Below are positions 1,830 to 39,398 of a stretch of DNA of 64,000 nt, piece after piece; position 1 is the first letter of the stretch, and every line of letters begins with the position of its first letter. The translations under genes were made by a program, and so were the position numbers. The stretch is from Thiohalobacter sp. IOR34 (GTDB taxonomy: Bacteria; Pseudomonadota; Gammaproteobacteria; Thiohalobacterales; Thiohalobacteraceae). The notes under the pieces are model-generated. The model had not been told where the DNA came from. It saw nothing but the letters and a program-made list of their open reading frames with translations, and did not search any database. Location: assembly GCF_030406045.1 (NCBI RefSeq), contig NZ_CP128988.1, positions 2,019,438 to 2,083,437 of the forward strand, read 5' to 3'.

Positions 1830-2740
1830 GACTGTTGCCGCTCGCCAGCCTGTACCTGGCGACAGCGCCGATACTCCCAGCGGCGGAACCGGGCGCCGAC
1901 GACCTGGACAGCGCGAGCACCCGTTCACGGGATGCGGTGGAACAGGCACAGCGCCTGAGCCGGGATGCCCGTTTCAATCGCAGGATTCGCCGTGAAGGCG
2001 AACGTGCCTTGTCGTCCGCCGGCCAGGCCGGTAGCAATGCACCAGCCGGTCTAGCCGGCATCGATTTTCCCGAGATCGACCAACAGACACTGGCCAAGGC
2101 CAGGGAAGACATCAAGGCCCTGCTGTCCGACCCCCGGCTGGCCACACCGGCTGGTTCGCCTTCTGATGGCAACGAGCCCCATCCGCTGGTCTTCGTCTCA
2201 TTCTCGATGCCTGAAGTCTCTCTACGGTCACTGCTCGTGGAAGCCGCGCGAGTAGAGTCGCCGGTGGTGTTACGGGGACTGGTGGATAACTCCATGAAGC
2301 GCACCGTGGCGCGCCTCGGCGAACTGCTGGGCACGGGAGACAGTAGTGAGACGACGGGTGAACCCGCCCCGGAGCACGGGCGCGCAGCGGAGGTGCGAGC
2401 GACTGGGGCGCAGCGGCCGGACCCCACCATCACAGGGGCCGGGACGCAGCGGCCGTCTCCGCAACTGGCCTTCGGCCCCGTGAGCCGGCCGCTCCCATCG
2501 CTGGCCATCGATCCCACCCTGTTCGAGCGTTTCGGCGTGGACAAGGTGCCGACCTTCGTGCTGCCGCTGGACACTATCGCTCCCTGCACACCAGAGAGCT
2601 GTCCGGTACCCACACATCTGAAAGTGGCAGGTGACGTAAGCCTGGTTTACGCCCTGGGCGTCATGGCGCGGGAGGCTGACAGCACCACACTGGGAACCCG
2701 TGCCGAGCAGTGGCGGGAGCGGCTGGAGGCGCGGCCATGA
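1814..2740 (+). CDS. trbC: TrbC-type pilin assembly protein
   Basis: 308 residues with a signal peptide (hydrophobic ~3-22, AEP cleavage region). The central segment LVFVSFSMPEVSLRSLL and the later FGVDKVPTFVLP are the two halves of the thioredoxin-like TrbC fold found in F-type pilus assembly proteins. A proline/arginine-rich, low-complexity stretch (~178-225) interrupts the fold and is probably a lineage-specific insert. A GGAGGAAG ribosome binding site lies inside the end of traU. The stop forms an ATGA with the reconstructed original start of traN. No CXXC motif is seen, so a structural role is more likely than redox activity. Confidence 0.88.
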   Translation: MLRILRLLPLASLYLATAPILPAAEPGADDLDSASTRSRDAVEQAQRLSRDARFNRRIRREGERALSSAGQAGSNAPAGLAGIDFPEIDQQTLAKAREDIKALLSDPRLATPAGSPSDGNEPHPLVFVSFSMPEVSLRSLLVEAARVESPVVLRGLVDNSMKRTVARLGELLGTGDSSETTGEPAPEHGRAAEVRATGAQRPDPTITGAGTQRPSPQLAFGPVSRPLPSLAIDPTLFERFGVDKVPTFVLPLDTIAPCTPESCPVPTHLKVAGDVSLVYALGVMAREADSTTLGTRAEQWRERLEARP

Positions 2741-2741
2741 C

Positions 2742-3005
2742 ACCAAGACAATTGATGGCAAAGCCTCGTTCAGCGGGTGTCTGGGCGGTCAGCCGCAAGG
2801 CGCGGTGGCGCCGCCATAGCACTCCTATGGCAAGCCGACGCAACACCGCGGATGGCTGCCCAGACGCCCGCCCGCAGGGAGCGCCCCACGCGTCCCGGCT
2901 CGGCGTTGCGGCCCTTGGCAAGGGCCAGCCATTCCCTGCGGTCCGCGCCTTGATCCGGGACGCGTGGAGTGCTCTGAACGAGGCTTTGCCATCGATTGTC
3001 TTGGT
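2742..3005. mobile_element. 264-bp MITE-like element with 32-bp terminal inverted repeats
   Basis: Positions 2742-2773 and 2974-3005 are inverted repeats matching at 31 of 32 bases (outer bases accaagacaat, inner bases gcctcgttcag). The ~200 bp between them code for nothing recognisable and are partly palindromic. The element sits exactly between the trbC stop and the traN signal sequence. It is 264 bp, a multiple of three, and leaves the reading frame open across itself. No transposase is encoded. A 2-bp AC duplication at the edges is possible but not convincing. Confidence 0.75.
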
Positions 3006-3009
3006 ACGT

Positions 3010-4950
3010 ATGCCCATCCTGCTTCTGGCCTGTCTCACGCTTCCGCTCGCAGCGACAGCGGCGGACCTCACGCGCGATCAAGCCCTGCAGCTCGGCAAGG
3101 ATTTCGGCAACGCGAACAACACCGGCGTATCGAATGCGGCTGCCAGCCCCGACCTGACCACGGTGCCAAGCTACCAGGGCACCAGCGTCCCGGAAACCCA
3201 GTACTACGGCTCGGGCCTCGGCATCGAGGACGCCGCGCGGCAGGCCCTGCCCAACAGCGAGGTCGGCAGCTTCGTACAGGACAGCGCCTTGAGCCGCCCG
3301 CGCTTCAACATCGACCGCAACGATCCCATCGTCCAGCGTGGCGACACCATCAGCGCCGATCCGGAGACCCTGCTCGGGCAGCAGCTCACCGGCCAGTACA
3401 GCGGCTGCCAGGAGGTCACGACGACCACTGCCCCGGCCACCTGGTCGGAGGAATACTGCACCGAGTGGGGCATGGACCAGCAGGTTGGCTGCCAGAAGAC
3501 CCTCAACCTGTCCTGCAACCGACCCATCGAATGCGACGCCGGCGGCATCAACCTGGATTCCGTGCAAAGTGACATGCGCTGGACCTACACCTACCCCTAT
3601 CTGACCATCGGCACCATCAGCGACAACTACTGGAGCGGTTATTGCGCCGTCTTCGATCGGAGCACCACTTTCACCATCGAGGACATCAACAAGGTCCAGG
3701 AATTCACCCTCATCCAGGCCGGCTTCGACGACTGGATCAAGGTCGTCGTCAACGGGACCCTGGTCTATGTCGGGCCTTACGGCGGCGACCGGCTGGAGGT
3801 AGTCACCACCGGCCGGTTCCGCCGCGTGCAGTACGGCGCTTCCAGCTACGGCTGGTGCGAACTCAGCACGAGCTGGAACAAGTCCCTCAATATCGACATC
3901 AAGCCCTATTTGCGCACCGGCCTCAACACCATCGACATGCGGGTGATCGTCGCCGGCGGCGGCGAGGGCTGGATCAAGTTCAAGGCCACGCAATATTGCG
4001 ACTGCCAATGGTCGGAGACCTGGGAGAGCACCTGCGGTGCGCTGGAACAGCAGGCGCAGGCCGGCATGTGCGTGCAGCAATCCCAAACCTGCCTGGAGCC
4101 GGGCGAGACGCGCCTCATCGACGGCATCGAGGTCTACCGCGACTGCTGGCGCTATGACCTGTCCTACCTGTGCGCCACCGGTGAGACCCGCGAGGAGCCC
4201 TATTGCCAGGAACTGCGCGACCGCGGCTGTAGCCAGGTCAATTCCACCTGCGTGAGCACCCTGCCGGACGGGAGTTGCTACGAGTACCAGCAGACCTACC
4301 GCTGTCCCCAAGGCAATGCCGCCACTCAGACGGTGATGAACTGCGGCGGCCAGACCTTCTGTCTCGACGGCGACTGCTTCGATGCCGGCTATACGCCGAA
4401 CCAGGACTTCGGCCTGGCCGCGAGCCATCTGGGAGCGCTGGAATCGGCGGCGAACGATTTCGACACCACCAACATGGTGGTCTTCAAGGGCCAGGACATG
4501 CGCTGCAAGAAGACCGTCCTGGGTTTCTCCAACTGCTGCAAAGACAGCGGCTGGGGGTTGGACCTGTCGCTCGCCCAGTGCTCCGAACAGGAGCAGGTCC
4601 TTGGCCAGAAGCGCGAGGCCGGACAATGCCACTACGTCGGCTCCTATTGCAGCGACAAATCCATCTTCGGCTGCCTGGCGCGGAAGTACACCTACTGCTG
4701 CTTCAACTCCAAGCTTGCCCGCATCATCCACGAACAGGGCCGCCCCCAGCTCGGCATCGACTGGGGTTCCTCGAAAAACCCCAACTGCCGCGGCCTCACG
4801 CCCGAGGAGCTGACACAGATCGATTTCGCGAGCATCGACTTCACCGAGTTCTACGCCGATGCCTTTGCCGCCGCCGACAATGCCGACCGGCCTTCCGGCA
4901 ACCAGATGCAGCAGATCATCGAACAGCGCATCCAGAGGTTGCTGCCGTGA
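3010..4950 (+). CDS. traN: TraN, mating-pair stabilisation protein
   Basis: 646 residues from the ATG that opens a clear signal peptide (MPILLLACLTLPLAATAADL). The protein is very rich in cysteine, with many C-x(3-8)-C spacings (for example GNAATQTVMNCGGQTFCLDG and SNCCKDSGWG), typical of TraN, the outer-membrane adhesin that contacts the recipient cell. The open frame extends upstream through the inserted inverted-repeat element to ATG 2737, which overlaps the trbC stop. Without the element the start would read M-T-R-M-P-I-L, so 2737 is probably the ancestral coupled start. Initiation at 2737 today would put 91 residues ahead of the signal peptide. No good ribosome binding site precedes 3010. 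Confidence 0.9.
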   Translation: MPILLLACLTLPLAATAADLTRDQALQLGKDFGNANNTGVSNAAASPDLTTVPSYQGTSVPETQYYGSGLGIEDAARQALPNSEVGSFVQDSALSRPRFNIDRNDPIVQRGDTISADPETLLGQQLTGQYSGCQEVTTTTAPATWSEEYCTEWGMDQQVGCQKTLNLSCNRPIECDAGGINLDSVQSDMRWTYTYPYLTIGTISDNYWSGYCAVFDRSTTFTIEDINKVQEFTLIQAGFDDWIKVVVNGTLVYVGPYGGDRLEVVTTGRFRRVQYGASSYGWCELSTSWNKSLNIDIKPYLRTGLNTIDMRVIVAGGGEGWIKFKATQYCDCQWSETWESTCGALEQQAQAGMCVQQSQTCLEPGETRLIDGIEVYRDCWRYDLSYLCATGETREEPYCQELRDRGCSQVNSTCVSTLPDGSCYEYQQTYRCPQGNAATQTVMNCGGQTFCLDGDCFDAGYTPNQDFGLAASHLGALESAANDFDTTNMVVFKGQDMRCKKTVLGFSNCCKDSGWGLDLSLAQCSEQEQVLGQKREAGQCHYVGSYCSDKSIFGCLARKYTYCCFNSKLARIIHEQGRPQLGIDWGSSKNPNCRGLTPEELTQIDFASIDFTEFYADAFAAADNADRPSGNQMQQIIEQRIQRLLP

Positions 4951-39189: not shown

Positions 39190-39398
39190 GCCGAGGTTTC
39201 ATGCCATGCCCACGAAAGACCTGGCAGGCTGTTGAAAAACCCGCTGACGGCACGATACGGCGTTCCGGCCCTTGACCAGGAGACCGACCCTTGCCGGCGG
39301 GCCGCGCCTTGTCCCGGCACAGGCCTGATGCCCTGAACTCGGCATGTTCAGTTGCCGGGTCAATAGCGCACATTTTTCGTGGGTTTCGTGGCCAACGT
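39190..39398. other. recX–recA intergenic region
   Basis: 209 bp with no supported gene. It contains GGCAGGCTGTTGAAAAAC, a motif that resembles insertion-sequence ends, and TTTTTCGTGGGTTTCGTGGCC, also seen in similar form near 62,180-62,235. It may be a remnant of a small mobile repeat. No terminator could be defined. Confidence 0.4.

Follow-up and report, generated by a model that had tools for sequence, protein, structure and literature searches.

The window, a stretch of 64,000 nucleotides from Thiohalobacter sp. IOR34, carries the neighbouring genes traU, trbC, traN, traF, traH and traG of an F-type conjugation system. On the forward strand trbC (Pfam TrbC_Ftype) occupies positions 1814-2740, and its stop codon overlaps the ATG of traN (Pfam F_T4SS_TraN). 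Read from this conserved ATG, traN extends from 2737 to 4950 on the same strand and includes an in-frame extension encoded by an inserted element. The insert (2742-3005) lengthens the trbC/traN junction by 264 bp and is bounded by terminal inverted repeats (TIRs) of 32 nt, a left one at 2742-2773 (forward strand) and a right one at 2974-3005 (reverse strand), which are 200 nt apart and complementary at 31/32 positions (97%). Folded as DNA, the 264-bp insert reaches -108.5 kcal/mol compared with -60.2 ± 3.6 kcal/mol for shuffled sequences (z = -13.3). The window copy is flanked by CA on the left (2741-2742) and by TA on the right (3005-3006), whereas the flanks of the other genomic copies are TA on both sides; the left flank corresponds to the site of the TA duplication in those copies with one base changed, and the right flank is the presumed target duplication. 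Reckoned by the TA flanks of the other copies, the element proper comprises 2743-3004 (262 bp, forward strand) plus a 2-bp duplication.

The first-pass annotation described this segment as a 264-bp inverted-repeat element inserted at the start of traN, a description that agrees both with the ends and with the relatives. Six records with TraN relatives were found (L082-L087), and the insert was absent from all six. In three of them (L082, L084 and L086 from Sedimenticola hydrogenitrophicus, with TraN 98%, 88% and 85% identical to that of the window, respectively) the junction equals the window sequence minus exactly 264 bp: trbC ends with GCGGCCATGA, and the overlapping ATGA is followed by 5 nt and a second ATG. 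The other three (L083, L085 and L087) also lack the insert, but the bases upstream of traN are more divergent. A segment of trbC (window 2371-2493) did not align to L082 and L084, whose trbC is shorter there.

Absence from all six relatives rules out that the insert is an integral part of traN. Because relatives lack it, and because 23 further full-length, TA-flanked copies were found in the genome, segment 2742-3005 is, as judged by these comparisons, a mobile insertion. These are the opposite of the observations named beforehand as speaking against an insertion, namely the same sequence within traN of relatives and no other genomic copies. With terminal inverted repeats, TA flanks (CA/TA in the window), empty junctions in relatives and 24 dispersed full-length copies, 20 of the 22 examined having no open frame, the element has the features of a MITE. 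Comparisons of inverted ends, copies, flanks and relatives identify the window copy as one of a diverged subfamily.

Genomic copies and mobilisation

The 24 full-length copies, the window copy included, are in a closed genome of 2.96 Mb. Most host copies are near-identical among themselves and share 74-81% identity with the window copy. A 23-nt end is present at both termini of 22 host copies; all matches to this 23-nt TIR (44/44) are ends of paired MITE copies, occurring as facing pairs at element spacing. Every host copy with intact ends has TA on both sides, and one copy (L019) is located at TTA within a sequence that is seen uninterrupted in L016 and L017. In three copies (L016, L017 and L039) an IS5-like end (GGGC[CG]TGTTAACACTA) truncates the right tip at CTTAG, and in L019 a host copy is inserted into such an IS5-like end.

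Where the TIR of the window copy departs from that of the host copies, each change at one end has its counterpart at the other. This excludes simple decay of a host copy, and the window copy therefore represents a distinct subfamily. It may be an older resident of the genome, or it may have arrived with the conjugation cluster. At G000:C1:1028868 there is a solo end similar to those of the window subfamily. DNA similar to the window copy was not found on plasmids or phages; viral contigs scanned with an exact pattern contained one match.

The arrangement suggests that the trbC/traN overlap of the F-type conjugation cluster received a non-autonomous transposon (MITE) at a TA dinucleotide. Judged by the flanks, it would have been moved in trans, the most likely enzyme being a DDE transposase that targets TA and belongs to the IS630/Tc1-mariner group. 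The TA target duplication is that expected of this group, and it is also compatible with other TA-duplicating families; a TIR shared with an autonomous IS630 element was not seen. The closed genome yielded no autonomous element carrying this TIR, every close TIR match being a MITE end, and a looser search with 14 nt of the TIR added just chance-level singles and altered MITE tips. A search for IS630 (DDE_3) genes in the genome recovered genes with other ends or none recognisable: the multi-copy IS630 (five copies) has different ends (TATTGAGCCTTGCATAAATG / TATTGAGCCTTGC), and two further DDE_3 genes have no TIR match nearby. Thus, neither the TIR searches nor the DDE_3 search revealed a parental IS in the genome. 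In the other genomes examined, searches for autonomous partners with the TIR TAGTGTCCTGTC or GGGCCTGTTGACGTTT gave none: what matched was a pair of MITE size or of TIRs alone, a lone end, or an end truncated at the edge of a contig. Since the closed genome holds no non-MITE TIR match and its IS630 ends differ, the element was not filed as an IS630 derivative.

The start of TraN

As the first-pass annotation had noted, the insertion left the frame open: from ATG 2737 across the element to the stop at 4950, traN is free of stop codons. About 13% of mononucleotide shuffles of the element are stop-free in a given frame, and the open frame is therefore by itself unremarkable. The length of the element together with a chance lack of stops would have preserved the traN frame.

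Two ATG codons come into consideration as the start. ATG 2737 overlaps the trbC stop and has GGAGG in front of it. ATG 3010 (3010-3012, forward strand) encodes the first residue of the signal-peptide-like sequence MPILLLACLTLPLAATA, and three relatives have a corresponding ATG downstream of the overlapping one. No Shine-Dalgarno sequence is evident upstream of ATG 3010. Because the overlapping ATG stands behind GGAGG in L082, L084 and L086 as well as in the window, it is most likely the native start of traN; ATG 3010 is the second methionine codon of that open frame. With the conserved start behind GGAGG, and with no evident ribosome site at ATG 3010, TraN probably carries 91 additional residues at its N-terminus. 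Translation would begin at the original overlapping ATG, traverse the element and yield a basic 91-residue extension ahead of the signal peptide, the predicted product being MTPRQLMAKPRSAGVW...VLVR followed by MPILLLACLTLPLAATA.

The new start at 3,010 that the first-pass annotation had offered as an option is, on the same grounds, unlikely to be the main one. If it were, the protein would be unchanged and the element would merely uncouple traN from trbC. The position of ATG 3010 at the opening of the signal-peptide-like segment, together with the equivalent second ATG in L082, L084 and L086, is consistent with this reading, but the trbC stop lies 270 nt upstream, the GGAGG stands before ATG 2737 instead, and a very stable RNA structure (361 nt, -229.6 kcal/mol, z = -10.7) can form between the trbC stop and ATG 3010; we regard it as rather unlikely. 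That the open frame is under selection and the element carries a peptide, like the Rickettsia palindromic elements, is very improbable: the genomic copy most similar to the window copy (L002) has the same length, 264 bp, is open in the same frame and lies just before a signal-peptide gene, but none of the other 20 genomic copies examined has a frame open throughout, and related families do not retain the frame. The open frame conserved across copies that characterizes the Rickettsia palindromic elements is thus not seen, and a conserved peptide in the element was ruled out by copies closed in all frames and by the frame's lack of conservation in related families. In L002 (1501-1764 and 1385-2551), roughly 10 bp separate this copy from the downstream start codon, an ATG, of a multihaem-cytochrome-like gene whose product has a signal peptide.

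The two-hairpin interior and its distribution

Each arm of the element contains one hairpin of about 77 nt, and the copy in the second arm is inverted. The covariance model of this hairpin module, R1, was used for genome searches. In the window copy, module 1 (arm 1) is at 2784-2860 on the forward strand (79.1 bits with R1), and module 2 (arm 2) lies in the opposite orientation at 2889-2964 on the reverse strand (78.9 bits). Between the arms, at approximately 2869-2881 (forward strand), is the linker CCCGCAGGGAGC, which is conserved and contains a short CCC/GGG hairpin. Members of the family share a fixed anatomy: a TIR stem, in most cases with TCAG at its end, a hairpin arm, the linker hairpin, an inverted hairpin arm and the second TIR.

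In an alignment of 34 modules from eight genomes the unpaired letters CAAGGC and AAC are invariant, and 22 of 25 pairs show compensatory change. Paired cells amount to 91%, compared with 62% in shuffles and 34-46% with slid partners, and the covariation score is 0.75, whereas shuffles score 0.22 and the slid controls no more than 0.15; relatedness inflates the contrast with the shuffles, and the slid control is not independent because this alignment was also used to derive the structure. When whole elements were aligned (14 elements, nine genomes), compensatory change was seen in 78/103 pairs, which include the TIR stem and the short linker hairpin.

Searches with R1 detected 82 modules in this genome. 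There are 37 convergent module pairs 104-126 bp apart and no same-orientation pairs at that spacing. A lone module in the window (39247-39323, reverse strand, 42 bits) is probably a remnant of a second element family, which has the ends TATTAACCCGGCAAC and whose 29-nt end matches 37 times in the genome. Among 398 Pseudomonadota genomes, R1 matched in 96, about a quarter of the sample. At the 29 best loci in other genomes a second, inverted module was located 90-108 bp away in 17 cases, several of the remaining loci being cut by contig ends. The TIRs of the elements that carry the module differ widely (e.g. TACTAAGACAAACG, TAGTGTCCTGTCCCG, GGGCCTGTTGACGTTT and GAGCCTGTTGATGATC); we take some of them to resemble IS630-type ends and others IS5-type ends. 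Related elements with other TIRs are present on plasmids of Azotobacter, Pseudomonas aeruginosa, Halomonas and Variovorax. The related element on the Pseudomonas aeruginosa plasmid (L139, 3001-3270) and one element end on the Azotobacter plasmid (L138, 4001-4042) are in unannotated intergenic gaps. Derivatives of about 50 bp that run from TIR to TIR and lack both hairpin arms were seen in one genome (G242; L195 and L197).

Since the internal loops are conserved while the stems change by compensatory substitution, the hairpin fold is probably under selection, which most likely would serve the element's own propagation. As to the form in which the fold acts, recognition of folded DNA during mobility is slightly favoured over an RNA role in read-through transcripts, because there is one sense module on each strand. 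Selection of the fold as RNA, for instance as a device for processing or attenuation in read-through transcripts, appears somewhat doubtful: on the module strand several positions often have G-U pairs and A-C mismatches are rare, and known MITEs change mRNA stability and processing (PMC10969869), but with one sense and one inverted module per strand either would serve, so that a DNA role fits equally, and Rfam gave no family match above the gathering score. Strand switching in replication can hold palindromes complementary without selection, yet it should not preserve conserved mismatched loops. This bears on whether the element is an ordinary MITE whose hairpins are a decayed piece of the parental IS and whose palindromes are kept by template switching. 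Stable stem-loop folds are common among MITEs (PMC10969869), and the TIR-only derivatives imply that the hairpins are unneeded for the persistence of copies. Against this, CAAGGC, AAC and the internal loops persist across families, where template switching would erase mismatched loops, and the same module is found under many different TIRs. We therefore judge the ordinary-MITE explanation unlikely, and selection on the fold remains the preferred one.

Relation to known elements

The fusion to traN is not without precedent. In-frame palindromic elements are established for RPE and ERIC/RU (PMC10969869; PMC2759123), which also lie in frame within protein genes, and therefore the traN fusion alone is a further instance of a known phenomenon. 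In contrast to RPE and ERIC/RU, most copies of the present element have no open frame, and the fusion looks incidental. The TA-duplicating bacterial MITEs (IS630/Tc1-mariner type; more generally Correia/NEMIS, Nezha and Chunjie) share with it the short, non-coding, multi-copy form with a stable fold, as well as long TIRs and TA flanks. The present element differs from them in being GC-rich, in having a covarying two-hairpin interior common to differing TIRs and in having no autonomous genomic partner. REP/REPIN elements, with RAYT, are also paired inverted hairpins spread by a transposase in trans, whereas the present element has long TIRs, TA flanks and 77-nt modules. The R0, R2, R6 and R200 repeats of Pseudomonas fluorescens, compared by description and not by sequence, are likewise intergenic and hairpin-bearing, and two of them, R0 and R2, have ends in common with IS elements (PMC2718517). 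Integron attC sites are likewise imperfect hairpins with conserved unpaired bases; no attC core motif was recognised by eye in the present hairpins.

A description of the two-hairpin architecture was not found in the literature searched, to which subscription papers and ISfinder did not belong, and the elements constitute a widespread mini-transposon type that appears not to have been described before. The proposal of a new MITE class is thus better founded than it was when first put forward, with the difference that the class is defined by the conserved internal two-hairpin fold and not by the TIR. Taken as a whole, an explanation in which a trans-mobilised MITE inserted at TA, TraN is probably extended, and the element belongs to a family with a conserved fold appears likely. 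A broader view is put forward tentatively: the elements could form a phylum-wide superfamily in which an inverted hairpin pair is passed between TIR sets, is recognised in folded form (ssDNA or RNA) and is needed for mobility or persistence, so that the interior, and not the TIR, would be the heritable core.

The traN case provides a clean natural example in which a MITE has been added, in frame, upstream of the signal peptide of a conjugation gene. The covarying fold common to MITEs with different ends suggests that the interior of a MITE can be structurally selected and need not be inert filler, and the covariance model offers a route to finding and testing such elements.
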